From positions 14,925,856 through 14,989,855 of the forward strand of contig NC_135246.1 of assembly GCF_947623445.1 (NCBI RefSeq): a stretch of DNA of 64,000 nucleotides, written 5' to 3'. Both the position numbers and the translations under genes were made by a program. The DNA is from Clavelina lepadiformis. Taxonomy: Eukaryota; Chordata; Ascidiacea; Aplousobranchia; Clavelinidae. Under the pieces are notes generated by a model. It was given only the letters and a program-made list of their open reading frames with translations, ran no database searches and had not been told where the DNA came from. Shown here piece after piece: positions 55,420 to 64,000 of the stretch; position 1 is the first letter of the stretch, and the number at the start of each line of letters is the position of its first letter.

Positions 55420-57267
55420 CGCATTAGTGACTTTACATTGTATACGATGTATTCTTGTTCTTTAATTAATTCATTATAGCTAACTTATCGTGATCATTTC
55501 TACTCAACAGAATTTTATAGTTTTAGTGTATGGCGCAGTGTAGCCCATACAGTTATGTACTCGCTATTGTGTGGTATTTGTAGCCCCGTATTTTGGTGCA
55601 GAAATGTCATACCGGTACTATGTCTTTATGTTACCTTCTGTTTTTTGAGCGTAAACTAGTCGCAAAGGCAAAACCCAGCAATAGTACTAAGGTTCCGAAA
55701 TTGGCTTTCGTAATATAGTACCTGAATATTTTGTATTTCAGTAGTTTGTTAATGAAATGCGCTACAAACGAAAAGATTGTTTTTCTGAAATTGGTGACAA
55801 CATAAAGCCAAATTGAACCCCTCCGTATTTCTAAAGACGATACAGGGAAATACCCGTTAAGATAATAAAAACATCTGTTCTGTTAAGCACTTTATCTGAC
55901 TGAAAAACATATGTGATGTTTTTTGATGTAACCGTACAGATTTAGCATTCTAGTAGAGCCTATTAAGCACCTGCCTACCATAATACAGAACGTATTTTTG
56001 AATACCGAAACAAGGTATTGATAAATTATTGTTGCCAGTAAATTAAGAAAGGTATGATACCGGTAACGTTTAATTCCCTGGCAAAAAATTATCCGTTCCA
56101 AGACGTTTTCTCTTAGGCTTATTAGCAGGTAAATAAGTTTAACTTGCCTATTCGTGTGTCTTTTTTTCTAACCCAACTGGCAACAGCCCATGTCTCAGAC
56201 AACGAATTCTGCCGGTGGAAATAGCCTAGTCACTTTGATTTTGAATTTAACATAATTTCTCAGAATTGCACCAAATCATTAGGCTTATTTAATTATCAGC
56301 CAATTGAATTTGAATTCAAGGAGAATTTCACTTCATAAGCTTACTGTCAGACAGTAATAAACAGGTACGGTAAAAAGTAAAACGATACATTAAAATATCA
56401 ATAGCCTAGGTAAATAATTGGCAATAAGTTGAAATAATAGCCTTCATATTTATCCAATTGAAAACGTTGATTGCGCACAGGCTTAATCTTCTTACAGTTA
56501 TACCAGTACAGGCTTACTGAACTTTAGGGCCTAGTTTGAGTGTGTGGGACAGTGATATTAAGATTACTAAGTGGCCATCTATTTATTAAACGAGTTAACA
56601 GTTACCTTACCCTTTTTGGAAGTAATGGTTGTTTAGGGACTTCAATGGGTTTAGTGTTCGTACTAACCATTATTCATTTTTATCATTTGGATACATAATC
56701 CTTGCACGTTTGAAGCCCCCTCCTTTTTCCCACTTTTAGTTTGCTGGTGGAGTTGTTATTTTATCACTCTATAATGGTTGGCACTTTATTTTTCACTGCC
56801 CCACAAAAAATTATGAAAAATAAACAATGTGAATTTCCAGCACATACATTCGAGACTCTCATTCAGGTGAGAAAGTCTTGCAGATGACCAATGCTTTAAC
56901 TTAGTAACGTGACAGGCTAATGCAGTGATGGCTTAAATGACTACCAACCAGTCTTTTTTGCTGAAAACTTTATAATTGAAGGAGAATAGTTATCTATTTA
57001 AAAAAAGTAGAGTAAAGATATACTGATACAATATATATTCACTCCTCGATTACAACTATTATTTAATATTTATAATTAAAATTAAATAGGATCATAATAT
57101 TACTTAGGTACACTCGTCTACCTTCATGTTTTACTAGCAGGTTATAAGACTTTAAGTTACACGAAAGGTTATGTTCAATTCTGAAACAAGTATTTCTAAA
57201 CCTTTAGAACCTGATCTGCTAACGGTTCGAGTTCAAGGCACGGTGCCACTGCCAATAACAAGTCAGC
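55420..57267. other. Intergenic stretch, no gene recognised
   Basis: 1.85 kb between the SLC26 copy B stop and the FAAP100-like ORF. Only short ORFs without features are present. The last part presumably holds the promoter of the downstream gene. Confidence 0.5.
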
Positions 57268-58869
57268 ATGATGGATATTTTGGACGAATTTCCTTGTAAC
57301 ATTACTTGCGTAGACCATATCCACTTTGAAAACAATATCACACTGACATTTGTTTCCTGCAGAATTGGAGTTCATGTTTATGGAAATGACAAAAAAATTG
57401 GATTCTGCAATGTGCCCATGCAATGTGAGAGGCTTGCCAAACATCTTTTGAAGCTTAAACACATAAAAGATATGGCAACAGCAATTGATAAAGTTAAAAA
57501 GTCACTTCTTCCATTTCAAATGCAAGCCGTGTCTATGTTTGACTTTGTTGGAGAATATTTCATTGCTGTGTTAAACAATGGAGATCTGATATTTTTTCAG
57601 AATGCTCTGAGGGAAGGCCTTCTCAAGGAAAAGATCTTTAGTAACATTTTGGGTTATGCTACTAGCACGGTAAGCCTAACCCCCGTCTTGAAAGACAAAC
57701 ACACCGTTGTACTTACCAAAACAATATCCCTGAAAAACAACAATAATGGATCTATTGTGGTGGATAAGCATGGATTTGCAGCTTTTTTTGGTCTTGAAGC
57801 TTCACTTTGTTGCTCAGACATTCTGCTTTTGTGTTTATCAAATGGAACCATTTGGTATTTGCCGCTAAATTCAAGTTTGGGCACACCATCTTTTTTGTAC
57901 TCTCTTAATGATGAGTGCATAGAAGTAGGCACAAGGAAATATGATGACACAGTTACTTTATTATTTTGCACGAAATGTGGGAAAGTGACATCGCTCATAC
58001 CAAAATGTGACCATTTCAAAGTTGAAGTGCACTGGATCAAGAAAGATGATGATCAACTGCCAAATATATGCTGCAATCGAACCAACTACTTTGAACAGTG
58101 TCGAAATAGCCTTATAGCAAAACGTAATGTTTTAGTTTTGCCAAGAACTAATGTCTTTGCTGTAACTAATTCCACAAATCTCCATCGATTGAGAATGGAT
58201 ATTTCTGAGTTGGGAAAAAGAAGAAAGACCCTTAATAAATTTCATGAGGAAGCACAGACAGCAATAATCAGACACAAAGACCTGGCAAACTTGTCAATCA
58301 AAAGTGAAGATTTATTTAAATACCACTTCACTGAATCGTATTTGCATGTTGAAGTGACTGATACGAACGTTTCTCCACTGGATTTTCAAGTAGTTTTGCA
58401 ATCCAATTCAAGTTCTAAAACTATTTCAAGCTCAAGTCATACCATTAGTGTCCCTTTCAGCGATGCTGTAGACTGTTGTCAAGCCAAATGTTTCGTCTGC
58501 AGAAATGATGTGCTCATAGGAAGTGATTCAATAAAATTTAATATTCTCAACTTTATGACGTATTCCAGCAATGTTTTATGGCTTGAAAAACGTTTTTCAT
58601 TTAAGCTTTTGCTATGCAGAAGTTTGACTTCACAAAGCATTGATTTCCTGAAATTTTTATTTCAACCAGAAATAGTTGTGAAAAAGCAAATATTTTCCTT
58701 AAAAATTGCATCAGATGAAATATTTGTCAAGTTCATGCTTAGTTCAAATGAAAAACAAACTGCGTTTCATGCGACTTCATCAAATGAATATATTCTGTGG
58801 AAATTTAAGTCTCTTATGGTATACCGTCTTCATAATATTAATAAAGGAAGTGAATCAGCTGCGTTGTAA
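57268..58869 (+). CDS. FAAP100/FANCB-like Fanconi anaemia core complex protein
   Basis: A single intronless ORF of 533 aa. The N-half reads like short beta strands of a propeller (VGEYFIAVLNNGDLIFFQN, SDILLLCLSNGTIWYLPL). A helical, coiled-coil-like stretch (ISELGKRRKTLNKFHEEA) follows, then a beta-rich C-part with HVEVTDTNVSPLDFQVVLQ and a Ser-rich hairpin ending HTISVPFSDA. This order matches vertebrate FAAP100, and more loosely its partner FANCB, which cooperate in monoubiquitination of FANCD2-FANCI. In human FAAP100 the propeller strand before the coiled coil and the hairpin after it fall at the same relative places. It is shorter than the human protein (about 880 aa). The identification is by pattern, not alignment. 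ATG 57268 follows an in-frame stop; ATG 57271 is also possible. Confidence 0.5.
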   Translation: MMDILDEFPCNITCVDHIHFENNITLTFVSCRIGVHVYGNDKKIGFCNVPMQCERLAKHLLKLKHIKDMATAIDKVKKSLLPFQMQAVSMFDFVGEYFIAVLNNGDLIFFQNALREGLLKEKIFSNILGYATSTVSLTPVLKDKHTVVLTKTISLKNNNNGSIVVDKHGFAAFFGLEASLCCSDILLLCLSNGTIWYLPLNSSLGTPSFLYSLNDECIEVGTRKYDDTVTLLFCTKCGKVTSLIPKCDHFKVEVHWIKKDDDQLPNICCNRTNYFEQCRNSLIAKRNVLVLPRTNVFAVTNSTNLHRLRMDISELGKRRKTLNKFHEEAQTAIIRHKDLANLSIKSEDLFKYHFTESYLHVEVTDTNVSPLDFQVVLQSNSSSKTISSSSHTISVPFSDAVDCCQAKCFVCRNDVLIGSDSIKFNILNFMTYSSNVLWLEKRFSFKLLLCRSLTSQSIDFLKFLFQPEIVVKKQIFSLKIASDEIFVKFMLSSNEKQTAFHATSSNEYILWKFKSLMVYRLHNINKGSESAAL

Positions 58870-58875
58870 AATAAA
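58870..58875 (+). terminator. Poly(A) signal AATAAA directly after the stop codon
   Basis: The hexamer begins on the base after the TAA at 58867-58869, so the predicted 3' UTR of the FAAP100-like gene could be only a few tens of bases. The next gene ends on the opposite strand 460 bp away. Confidence 0.5.
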
Positions 58876-59332
58876 ATTAACTGTGAAGTGTTGTACTTTT
58901 TTTCAAAATGCAGCCCAGACATACGTAAAATTGTACTAATCTGTGTTATAACTGTTCCATACATCATCACTTGCATTAAAAATCAATAACGAACGGCACC
59001 AATTAAAATGAAGATTAAAACTGCAAGATCAAAATACCATGAAAAAGAATATCTTCGGTCCATATCTAAAATATATAGATTAGCTTATTAAAAGAAACAT
59101 GTGAGAAATTCATTTAATACTGGTTTATAATCATTCTCACCAGGAAGATAATTTCCTAGGTTTGATTGAGGTCAATTGTTTTTGCTCACTGTCAACTGAA
59201 GGTCTTGCTAAATAATTCATATCTGATAAATTTTTGGACGGACCTCAATAAGCGTTTTTTGATAAATATTTATGAGACTATCGGTATTGGACTACAATGC
59301 TCACCTTACAAGCTCAAGAATTGTGAATACTG

Positions 59333-62326
59333 TCATGATGACGTTTTTTGATTAGTAATAATATCTTTCGTTTTCTTCTCATCTAGCATAGTTTTTTGTT
59401 TCAGTTCATCAATTTTCTTTTGCAAAGTTGATGATTGTTTTTTCAAGCCTCCTCTACTTGGTTGTAGTGATGCATTTTGCAAATAGTATTTCGATGTTAT
59501 TGAAACTACAAAGCAAACAGTTGTCCATGAAGTGAACTGTGCATATATACAAGTGTAGCAAAAAATTAAACCTGGTAAACAGTTTTTTAATTCTACTAGC
59601 ACACTTGCTAAAATGCTGATGGATATAGGCTGCCTGTAAACAGATAAAATATGCTGACATTGCAATACTTACCATGACTGGATATTTCAGAGCAATCCTT
59701 GCTGGAGTCTTCCTTTAGCTTTTTGCACAGGGCTTCATACATGCTATTACTGCATTGGACACAAAGTTTAACTTCAAATAATCAGCTCGTTGCAATGTAT
59801 AGCATCATTAAAATAGTGAAGGCCAATAAAGTATGTATGAATATGGCCTAGCGGCTAGGCCCTAGCCAATATAAACCGCAACTACCTGCTACGCTTGTTT
59901 GTTTTTGCATTCTTGCTTTTATGTTTAGAAAACCAGGTCGTAATAGACTTTTCAGAACAGTTCAGATCATCTGACAATTTCTGGATGGTTTCACTGTAGA
60001 ATACATTTCAACAATATCATGAATCCCATATTTTCAACAGCTTGAGATATCGTTTATATATCTAGTCATACCACGAAAGAAATAATACGGCAAATTTAAT
60101 AAATTATTGGCTAATAAGCCAAAGCTTTTTAACAGAAATTGAGCTTAATTGTTCGTGGGTTGCCAAGACGCAAGAATAGTGTAATGTGGCCCATACACAT
60201 AAAACTTTGGGCACTCCTGAATGTGAAAATATAAAGTTTTACTGCATACTTATCAGGATTTGGATTCAAAGAAAATGATTTAAGTAAGATTTTTGTTGAT
60301 TTCACATCAAACATGTCAATATTTCGTTTTTTTCTTTTGGAAACACCAATAAAGTTGTTGAATTCATTGTCTCCCTAAAATAACAATTTCAGGTCAAAGT
60401 AGTAGTTTTTTTCAAATGCTTTTAATATTACGTATGGTATATTAGACAACAGTAACAAATACCAACTTTAAAAATTCCTAACGAAATGATGTCTAAACAC
60501 AATTACACAGGATGTACAAATCAGAATGCTTGAAATATACACACTGTAGCTAAGCTGCATGTAATGAATTAATCAAGGTGACTATTAAAAATACTGAAAT
60601 TTACGTAGTGCGCCATGCGATTGAAAGATCATACAACAGACAAACCTTTTGCTTTTGTTGTTGAGCATTTTTCAACCAGTCATATAAAACTGGATACAAG
60701 GAAATCATACATGAAATTGATAGTTCCAACATTTCAAACCTGTAAACAAAAATTTGATGCATTTCAATAACACAAAAAATAGATTTTAGCTTTACCTAAA
60801 AGCGACAACACATGGCAACAGAATATTTATTTTCGAACTGAATAAAATCCTTGCTAGACTTAAACTCGATGGTTATTTTTACCTGCTCAAATCCTGATAA
60901 TCAATTTTTTGTGCATTGTTAACTGAAGATATGTTTTTGTAGTCTTGCCCGAATTTAAAACTGTTTATCAGGACTATTGAACAGAAACGAGTTCAATTAA
61001 AAAGTTTCAAACAGCGCCATTGCAATGATAGCACGGCATCGTCAAACATTAAACCTAGAGTCTGGCACTTCAACCACTATAATACTGAGAGTCAATTGTT
61101 GCCTTTCCAGTAACAAGTGTTTTGCCCAAATCAGTCAGCAAATTTACTTTGAAATTGTTGATCTATTAATCGGTTTTCTTCTCCATTTTCCAATTGATGT
61201 GGCAACTTGACGTTGCGTTACATCCATCGAAATTCGAGCATCACGAAACTTTTCCGCAAATTTGGCTATTTCTTTAAAGTTGACGTTTAATTTCTTTTCA
61301 AGCCCTTCATGCACTTTTGTGTTATCTGTATTGGAGTTTATGAATGGAGTGAATTTATATATGGAGTGTAAGCCACAACAATTAACATATCTCCAACTTA
61401 CCACTATGTTCATTGAAAATTGATGGAGAAGACTTCATGGCTTTCTTTGAACCTTTCTAAAAACATATTAGTTTGTAATATATTCGAAGCAAAAACACTA
61501 GAGCCAGAGTAGATGCAACATTTTAATAACAGGCGTTTTGAGTAACTTGTATGAGTATAGTTATTATTTGAAATGTCTACTCTGGCTATAGTGTTTTTCC
61601 TTGGAATTACTTGATCTTCCCAACATTGTTCTCCTAGATGCTTAATAATGCAGCTGAGGTTTAAAAAAAATGTTTGTATACAGTATATATAAAAACGCGA
61701 TTACTTTCTGTATGAGGTTTGACAGTTCTTCATGGAGCTTATCTTCTGCTTGAACAATTTCTGCTGAAAGACCACAGAATATTTAATCATGTTAATACAA
61801 GTTATATCACTTTCCATGCTGTAACTTTTCAAATGATTGATTTTCTTGGAAATAATGAGTACAAAATATGAACTTTATGTGCATCATGCATGCATACATG
61901 CGTTCCATCTGTGGCAACAAATTTGCTTTTAGACGTGCCGTATGTTTCATAATTTGATTGGAATTTGAAAGAATAAAAACCAATCAAGAACAATTTCTGA
62001 AACTGGTGAACTTGTAATGCTAAAGGTGTTCCAAATATTCCTAACTCATAGTCATCACTACATGCTAAAAAATGCAACCAACTTGAACAGATACACACAC
62101 AGCAACACACTTGAAAAAATCAGGATATGCAATAATTACCCGTATCATGAGAATATGCAACATCAACAATGTAACCCTTGATACCATTCAATTCAACAAG
62201 CTCAAGTTCAGCTTTCCTCTGTGAAACTTTTTCCAGTAAATCATTGTATCCCATATTTTCATGCAGTACAAATGATTGGCCAGCTCCGTCTTTATCAGAT
62301 TCTGAATCACAAACCGTTTGAGGCAT
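59333..62326 (-). CDS. Divergent POU-homeobox transcription factor
   Basis: Exons in transcript order: 62140-62326, 61705-61763, 61402-61456, 61148-61325, (60883-60960 optional), 60646-60739, 60250-60374, 59886-59993, 59673-59749 and 59333-59451. It encodes 333 aa without the optional exon, 359 aa with it; phases close in both. Skipping it restores a full-length POU-specific domain (about residues 115-188): FKEIAKFAEKFRDARI, DVTQRQVATSIGK, NRSTISKFEMLELS, LYPVLYDWLKNA, with the same spacing as Oct1 between the GK and SxFE motifs. A basic linker SKRKKRN leads into a homeodomain at about 206-265 (STKILLKSF, NPNPDNETIQKLSDDL, SITTWFSKHKSKN). L16, F20, W48 and F49 are kept, but Asn51 is Lys, and in the POU-specific half the usual SQTT reads NRST. 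The acceptor of the last exon is the weakest. The N-terminus has a short coiled coil. The POU class is not assignable. Confidence 0.82.
60883..60960 (-). other. Candidate 78-nt cassette exon inside the POU-specific domain
   Basis: Flanked by a usable acceptor (gataaacag) and donor (AG/GTAAAA), phase 2 on both sides, with no stop. Inclusion adds 26 residues between STIS and RFEM, in the middle of the DNA-recognition helix, and would disrupt that helix. Skipping joins the flanking exons in frame to STISKFEM. It may be a true regulated exon or a chance open segment. Confidence 0.35.
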
Positions 62327-64000
62327 ATCTTATCTGTATGAGTGATGTACAGTATACTGTAGATATAGGCAAACCTAAGTACATACCACCAACTAATGAA
62401 TCCTATAAGGAAAGACATTTTGGAAATTATAGACAAGATCGTAGCAAAACTCACGTACCAACATAGGAATAAACAATTCCAACGTTAAAATTTGAAATGC
62501 GTTTTCATTAGGCTAGCGGCTAGCCTACTCCAATACAATGTTTCAAATTTCAAAATACTGAAATATCCGTCAGCAAAAATTAATCGTCGCAATTCGTTTT
62601 AAAGCTTTAAACGCGTTTTACCTCAAACATCACGTGCAGAATAGTATGCTCATACTTCATGCCTGAGCACAGATTACTTATACGCTACTACAGCAAGCTT
62701 GTCATGCTGGTTGTTTTGTATCCGGTTGCCGCCGCTTAGGTAAGCAGTTTTCACAACCGCAGCACGAGTGCAAAGTGATTTAAACATGTCAAAAAAACCG
62801 TTATCGTGCTTTGGCGCCATTCAATACCACAACTTGCTTAAGTTAGCAATAGGCTAGATACCATTAGAATAGTCAACGTCAGGAACTAAGGCAGGTTTTA
62901 GATGAATACAGTATTTACAGACAAAAAAGTGACAATGTTCGGTGGTTAAAGCGTATAGCGTCACATCAACTGTTTGCAGCCTGCTATATATACAAGCAAA
63001 AAGTATTAAAGACCTAGTTCATCTGAGGCGAGTAGGCTAAAGCTACCCTTCGCCCTTAGAATGGTCGATCACCCTTTTTAAGAATGAAAAAAGAATTAGC
63101 GTGTTACAGAACGCAACGTGGTTAGCTGAAAGTGAACAACAGGCAGTTGTATATCTTGTAACTGCGTGAAACTGAACGTTGTGATTACTTTTTCCGCAAT
63201 CGCCTTAACTTATGAGTAGTTGCGTACAATTGTGTGATTAGTCACGATTACTGTACTTGTGTTCTTTATTCAAAACGATCGAAAGTTGTTACAGTACACC
63301 ACTTAATTTCAGCCATTTACAGCTTTATATCTGAAACCTAAAATGAGTCCATTTCATCGATTAACAAGTTTGAAGTTAACTTAATGTTTATGCGTGGCAT
63401 AGTGGGTACCAACGTAATAATAAAGGAAGTTACATTTTATGCTTCCATAGTGCACAGTGCACACTAAAGAGAATAGAATAGACCTTTCACACTGCCGCCT
63501 GCCATTTTGAAAGGTTGAGTAAGGCGTTACGAATCGTAAGTACCGCAACTTCGTTGCGTCTGTGAAACATAAACAAAGACTGACGAGGTCAGTCTTCCCT
63601 TTCCGTTTTTCTCTCTCTCGCTCCACAGACACATCGGCATCGCAACTACGTGCAAACAGGAAAATGTCCTTTAGCCGAGCTGGTCTCAGAAAATGCTTTG
63701 GCCCAATCAGATTCATTCGGCTAAAGGCCAGACATGCCAAAGGTCAACGCAACTTAGTTTAGGGTGCTTGTAAACGCATAGAAAAAGTTACTTCGCCACA
63801 AAGCTGAGAGAATATATTTGTTAGTGTGTTTTGGAAGTTCTATGCTACACATCGAGTAAAAAACATTTGTCAATAGGCCGTGGAACGTATGAAACTGGCA
63901 GAAGTGTTAAAACGTTTCGCAGCTTCGCTTTGTTAAACACAGACGAGAACCAGATTCATGCACCTATTTCAACATGGTGGGCTGTAAAGGTCTACATTGC
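62327..64000. other. Upstream region of the POU gene and right end of the window
   Basis: Contains the POU promoter and, at 63483-63596, a cluster of small perfect inverted repeats. A 66-codon ORF (63562-63762, +) has no recognisable domain. No other gene is supported; a gene that starts beyond 64000 could have its promoter here. Confidence 0.45.
63483..63596. repeat. Cluster of four short perfect inverted repeats
   Basis: CCTTTCA (63483-63489) pairs with TGAAAGG (63508-63514). TTACG-aat-CGTAA spans 63527-63539. CGCAAC-ttc-GTTGCG spans 63544-63558. AAGACTGAC-gag-GTCAGTCTT spans 63576-63596. Three have loops of exactly three bases. Role unknown. Confidence 0.6.

Follow-up and report, generated by a model that had tools for sequence, protein, structure and literature searches.

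POU proteins combine a POU-specific domain, a linker and a homeodomain in that order, and the residues with which they contact DNA have been named for Oct4. A simulation study gives Gln44, Thr45, Arg49, Ser56, Lys94, Arg95, Arg97, Arg105, Asn143 and Gln146 as contacts and Arg20, Lys40 and Arg145 as contributors of energy (PMC4720428), and Val139, Asn143 and Gln146 are described as contacts in a second source (PMC9943670); subtracting 92 from the Oct4 numbering gives the homeodomain numbering used here. An older survey of 346 homeodomains, cited in PMC2211742, had Asn51 in every one of them. Human SEBOX has Lys51 and Trp53; it was suspected of being non-functional, and the authors provisionally treated it as a functional, if divergent, gene (PMC2211742). 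Within the POU genes, the POU6 class is marked by Phe at homeodomain position 8 and Leu at position 56 (PMC3340352), and in POU6F2 both DNA-binding domains are spread over exons 10 to 11, where use of an alternative acceptor inserts 36 residues into the POU-specific one (PMC10436210). In ascidians, fast-evolving POU genes are known from the POU-X/POU3 clade, whose genes are single-exon, POU-X being reported only in Styelidae and Pyuridae (PMC8948423). An ascidian POU6 is not described in the available text of PMC8948423, PMC4245813, PMC9953854, PMC5882950 and PMC3340352.

Here we describe a POU gene from chromosome 7 of Clavelina lepadiformis, found in a stretch of 64,000 nucleotides (the window, C7:14925856-14989855), that shares the architecture of these proteins and has lost much of their DNA-reading face. 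A preliminary description had proposed a highly divergent POU gene with both halves of the domain in order within 59333..62326, and on all of these points, including the exact limits, it was right.

Gene structure and domain architecture

The gene lies on the minus strand, with its ATG at 62326 and a stop codon ending at 59333, and its coding sequence of 1056 nucleotides (351 amino acids) is divided among nine coding exons, which were joined by hand from open frames and not by a gene finder. All eight introns (76-408 nt) are bounded by GT-AG and their phases are consistent. The parts of the gene are as follows (a slash marks the splice site).

62140..62326, minus strand: coding exon 1, N-terminal region, ATG at 62326, donor ACGG/GTAATT
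61705..61763, minus strand: coding exon 2, TTTCAG/CAGAAA to CAGAAA/GTAATC
61402..61456, minus strand: coding exon 3, TTTTAG/AAAGGT to ATAGTG/GTAAGT
61148..61325, minus strand: coding exon 4, initial two thirds of the POU-specific domain, its end splitting codon 49 in phase 2
61156..61164, minus strand: codons R44-S45-T46 in place of Q44-T45-T46, from sequence and alignment
60646..60739, minus strand: coding exon 5, remainder of the POU-specific domain and start of the linker
60250..60374, minus strand: coding exon 6, linker with POU6-like NEFNNFIG, homeodomain arm and helix 1
59886..59993, minus strand: coding exon 7, homeodomain helices 2 and 3 (WFSKHKSKN)
59924..59926, minus strand: codon AAA, Lys at homeodomain position 51, where the reference rows have Asn in 11/11
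59673..59749, minus strand: coding exon 8, C-terminal, ATGCAG/TAATAG to GTCATG/GTAAGT
59333..59505, minus strand: coding exon 9 with the stop codon, acceptor TTTGTAG/TTTCAA

The division into short exons had been recognised before, but with ten of them; nine suffice. A frame-2 open reading frame is present near 62055-61930, where a tenth would lie, and could be an exon but is not needed, since exon 1 joins exon 2 in phase.

As joined, the nine exons contain no stops, frameshifts or lost introns, which still leaves room for recent silencing. At intron composition, 351 stop-free codons have P = 3e-12, a value that is overstated because the exons were picked for being open. GC content by codon position (0.401, 0.321, 0.298) resembles that of a neighbouring open reading frame of 536 amino acids (0.403, 0.326, 0.330), and the codon-usage score is negative for both alike. 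The chosen frame is the best of the three sense frames overall, but in only 3/9 single exons; the training frames may include non-coding ones, and codon usage carries little weight here. The neighbouring frame (57259-58866, plus strand) is convergent with the POU gene and ends about 460 bp from it; it has no Pfam match above cut-off, and its best match among solved structures has an E-value of 0.77.

Pfam, the search that had been suggested as a check, finds both domains in the spliced protein: the POU-specific domain at residues 117-185 (69.6 bits, E 2.2e-19) and the homeodomain at residues 212-261 (35.3 bits, E 1e-8). Both scores exceed the curated cut-offs, and the E-values exclude chance matches. 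The order is that of the POU class, with the POU-specific domain followed by a linker and the homeodomain in one protein. In a genome-wide search, exons 4 and 5 alone reach the PF00157 cut-off of 27 with 36 and 27 bits, and these single-exon matches are independent of the joining by hand. Among 44 sequences of solved structures matched at E up to 1, the best across both domains is POU6F1 (3d1n, 69.5 bits), followed by Oct-1 (64.8 bits). The region encoded by exon 1 has no Pfam match at E up to 1. Coiled coils were considered for the N- and C-terminal parts and dropped, as the heptad excess is no better than in shuffled sequences (P 0.51 and 0.53).

Some smaller features accompany the gene. Intron 2 contains an inverted repeat (61482-61513 and 61576-61607; 32 nt, 91 percent complementary, 62 nt apart), possibly the relic of a small mobile element. 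Just upstream of the ATG, an acceptor-like CATACAG at 62334-62340 on the minus strand, found by eye, is compatible with an intron in the 5' UTR or with spliced-leader addition, which occurs in ascidians. Rfam gives no match at gathering score in 57000-64000.

Residues kept and residues replaced

The protein was compared with 11 reference POU sequences, two from the Clavelina genome, six agreeing with solved chains and three unconfirmed. They share 33 invariant alignment columns, with position 57 judged on the 10 rows that reach it. The Clavelina protein keeps 16 of the 33, unevenly divided between the POU-specific domain (11/18: F12, R20, T26, Q27, V30, I47, F50, E51, L53, L67 and W70) and the homeodomain (5/15: L16, F20, P26, W48 and F49). 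Changed in the POU-specific domain are K17R, L23M, G24D, G31A, S43N, Q44R and R49K, and in the homeodomain R5I, T6D, A35S, V44S, R46T, V47T, N51K, R53K, Q54S and K57A. The usual POU mark Asn51, which is not part of the architecture that defines the class, is thus Lys, as had been reported, in the codon context TGG TTT TCT AAA CAT AAA AGC. An error in one codon cannot account for the finding, because 17 of the 33 invariant positions differ.

The changes in the homeodomain spare its core. The signature L16/F20/W48/F49 (PMC4901127) is kept in all four positions, in line with the earlier claim that core residues are retained. By contrast, R5, V47, N51, R53 and Q54, all named as DNA-contacting in Oct4 (PMC4720428, PMC9943670), are changed, so that the emphasis previously laid on Asn51 was correct as to the residue but too narrow. 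T6, A35 and V44, which are also changed, are not obviously reading residues, and the division into core-signature and DNA-contact residues was made after the list of changes had been seen. The reading helix of the POU-specific domain is altered by Q44R, T45S and R49K. The replacement of the QTT triplet by RST is real but smaller than it had been made to appear: only Q44R is radical, because rows of POU4 and POU6 can have Ser45 as well. Compared by eye from the alignment, 3/11 equivalents of the Oct4 contacts are identical (Ser56, Lys2 and Arg3); of the energy contributors, Arg20 and Lys40 are kept and Arg145 (homeodomain position 53) is Lys. A core signature that is kept while the reading residues are replaced points to a POU protein that folds but has a homeodomain without the usual base reading; the POU-specific half could still bind, with a changed preference.

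Class of origin

To judge by class-specific residues and the linker, POU6 is the most likely source class. We counted residues found in every row of one class and in no other class. The gene carries 7/42 of those of POU6 (permutation P 0.006; about 0.04 corrected for six classes), compared with 1/32 for POU1, 0/6 for POU2, 2/16 for POU3, 2/32 for POU4 and 2/35 for POU5. Without the unconfirmed rows the counts are 10/56 for POU6 (P 0.0016) and 5/53 for POU4 (P 0.27). As controls, five rows left out singly each returned to the correct class; when whole classes were left out, POU5 was assigned to POU3 (P 0.006) and POU1 to no clear class (POU3 P 0.07, POU6 P 0.09). This leaning of POU1 towards the two classes means that ancestral states may make up a share of the POU6 signal. 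The linker, compared with 11 linkers by shuffling, is closest to POU6F2 (P 0.005) and POU6F1 (P 0.009), with POU4F1 next (P 0.046). Further likenesses to POU6 (POU6F1/Brn-5 and POU6F2) are the order and spacing of the domains, TQxQV and Ser22 in the POU-specific half, F(V/I)G in the linker, Phe at homeodomain position 8, in a column where it is otherwise confined to POU6 rows, and, as in POU6F2, an intron that splits the POU-specific domain. This intron interrupts codon 49, presumably the same codon as in POU6F2.

The gene differs from POU6 in having Lys51 instead of Asn51, in its replaced base-reading residues and in Asn at position 56, where Leu is typical of POU6. Identity is flat across the classes (POU2F1 29.7, POU4F1 29.3, POU6F1 29.0 and POU6F2 25.3 percent). 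The phylogeny that had been called for leans weakly to POU4, where residues and linker favour POU6. On a branch of 3.8 (LG+G4) or 10 (mixture model) changes per site, the gene is joined to POU4 in both trees without firm support (63/89 and 85/100). A POU6 grouping, when constrained, has AU p 0.18 (LG+G4) or 0.045 (mixture) on this very long branch and fares no better than a POU2 grouping, which is not rejected (p 0.38 and 0.30); POU1 is rejected, POU5 is borderline and POU3 is borderline rejected (p 0.049 and 0.047). On account of this mixed evidence, residues and linker against trees, identity and position 56, we call the gene a POU gene that is probably POU6-derived and refrain from placing it in POU6.

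The other genes of the same genome bear on this question. The assembly (209.06 Mb, 95 contigs) was searched with PF00157 at E up to 10. All eight best-scoring candidates gave a match, six of them exons of three POU genes and the remaining pair (C9; E 1.2 and 2.1) apparently chance; as only the best candidates are scored, a very divergent extra copy could escape. Besides the gene described here there is a POU4-like gene (C1:8093757; helix 3 WFCNQRQKQKR) and a POU2-like gene (C2:18733649; WFCNRRQKEKR, branch also longish at 0.9-1.1), both with Asn51. They differ from it in keeping WFCN(R/Q)RQ and the QTT or QST triplet, and each has a different intron site in the homeodomain. The phase-2 intron in codon 49 (AA/G) agrees in site and phase with that of the Clavelina POU4 gene (AG/A), whereas the POU2 intron lies, by eye, seven codons further on. 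No close paralogue was seen among 18 genome matches; the best of them outside the gene's own exons (E 0.005) is a weak one at C1:20279761, where there is a WFHNYR homeodomain, by eye of CUT type. As expected for an animal gene, one scan of viral contigs (10 pattern matches) and one of prokaryote genomes (60) gave no confirmed relative.

Descent from another class, be it a diverged POU4 or POU2 duplicate or a derived POU3 such as the POU-X of Styelidae and Pyuridae, is somewhat unlikely. The position of the gene in the trees and the intron it has in common with the Clavelina POU4 gene speak for POU4, and POU2 is not rejected. The class-unique residues of POU4 and POU2 are, however, not above chance, the shared intron may be ancestral, and both the three-residue insert that POU4 has before SQSTICRF and its WFCNQRQ helix are missing, the helix being different here. 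POU3 is a poor fit because the Clavelina gene has nine coding exons and the ascidian POU3 and POU-X genes one (PMC8948423), and the tree tests point the same way.

Loss of Asn51 in the genome and proposed function

The gene is not alone in lacking Asn51, which tempers the earlier impression that its loss is unusual. Human SEBOX likewise has Lys at position 51, and its position 53 is changed too, but it is a PRD-class gene whose function is doubted (PMC2211742). We surveyed 52 distinct homeodomain stretches of the Clavelina genome, at loci chosen by score and not at random, of which overlapping ones may count a domain twice. The helix-3 pattern is matched by 40 of the 52, 28 with Asn51 and 12 without; these 12 are nine stretches at C5:867-922 kb, the POU gene itself and two pattern artefacts from incomplete rows. 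In three further stretches of 10 kb on chromosome 5, two of them in the main array, 14/17 domains reach helix 3 by eye, and in 12 of the 14 position 51 is not Asn but I, E, D, S, T, K or P. Loss of Asn51 is not confined to the POU gene in this genome. The chromosome 5 array (loci L021, L025, L028, L029, L055, L064, L065 and L066) occupies two regions.

C5:847530-924314: dense array, at least 29 divergent homeodomain matches in about 77 kb
C5:1200390-1252208: at least 8 further divergent homeodomain matches

Its recurring helix-3 types are WFLERR/WFLDRL, WFEIRR and WF-SCT/HTR, mostly without Asn51, and as putative genes these matches may be more striking than the POU gene.

The best explanation of the locus, to which we give a probability of about 0.45, is that it is a protein-coding, very fast-evolving POU-class gene that descends from POU6, without a close genomic copy in sight, and whose product would bind DNA led by the POU-specific half. 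The protein would be nuclear, given the basic KRKKR arm. Any binding would run mainly through the POU-specific domain, in which R20, Q27, K40 and S56 are kept and T45S and R49K are conservative, while the homeodomain would contribute backbone or protein contacts of a non-specific kind and have given up reading the usual AT-rich half-site. We speculate that such a protein, its specificity changed or relaxed, acts as a modulator or a competitor, and not as a classical activator of the octamer type.

Other readings accept the gene and question its function. Relaxed constraint or early decay, in which fold residues linger and reading residues drift without a selected new function, is unlikely; the flagging of human SEBOX, with Lys51 and Trp53, as a possible non-functional pseudogene (PMC2211742) provides a precedent, and the homeodomain has lost 10/15 invariant residues, but the frame is open over 351 codons in nine intact exons and the core signature is complete, though this contrast could be the relic of an earlier selected state. 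That specific DNA binding is wholly lost, the protein acting through contacts with other proteins, for instance by competing for POU partners, appears quite improbable. All of R5, V47, N51 and Q54 in the homeodomain and Q44, T45 and R49 in the POU-specific half are indeed changed; against this, two of these changes are conservative, R20, Q27, K40 and S56 persist, as do K2 and R3 in the arm, helix 3 remains rich in Lys, and the N- and C-terminal parts show no coiled coil beyond that of shuffled sequences. Still more improbable is a retuned factor that would recognise DNA with a new specificity through a surface newly made of Thr47, Ser50, Lys51 and Ser54. It would account for a reading face that changed while the core signature stayed, in a genome whose homeodomain array also varies at position 51, but specific binding through Lys51 is not known from any homeodomain.

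A wider reading, which we consider doubtful, would have a POU6-derived gene in which selection kept the POU fold and discarded base reading by the homeodomain, as part of a broader escape from Asn51 in Clavelina that includes the tandem array. A bipartite POU domain whose homeodomain has lost its reading and kept its core would show how unbalanced a two-part DNA-binding domain can become. In the ascidian POU survey, POU6 served solely as an outgroup from vertebrates (PMC8948423); if the gene is the tunicate POU6, such divergence could explain the difficulty of recognising this class in ascidians. The context of the Clavelina genome makes the question of Asn51 testable within one species.
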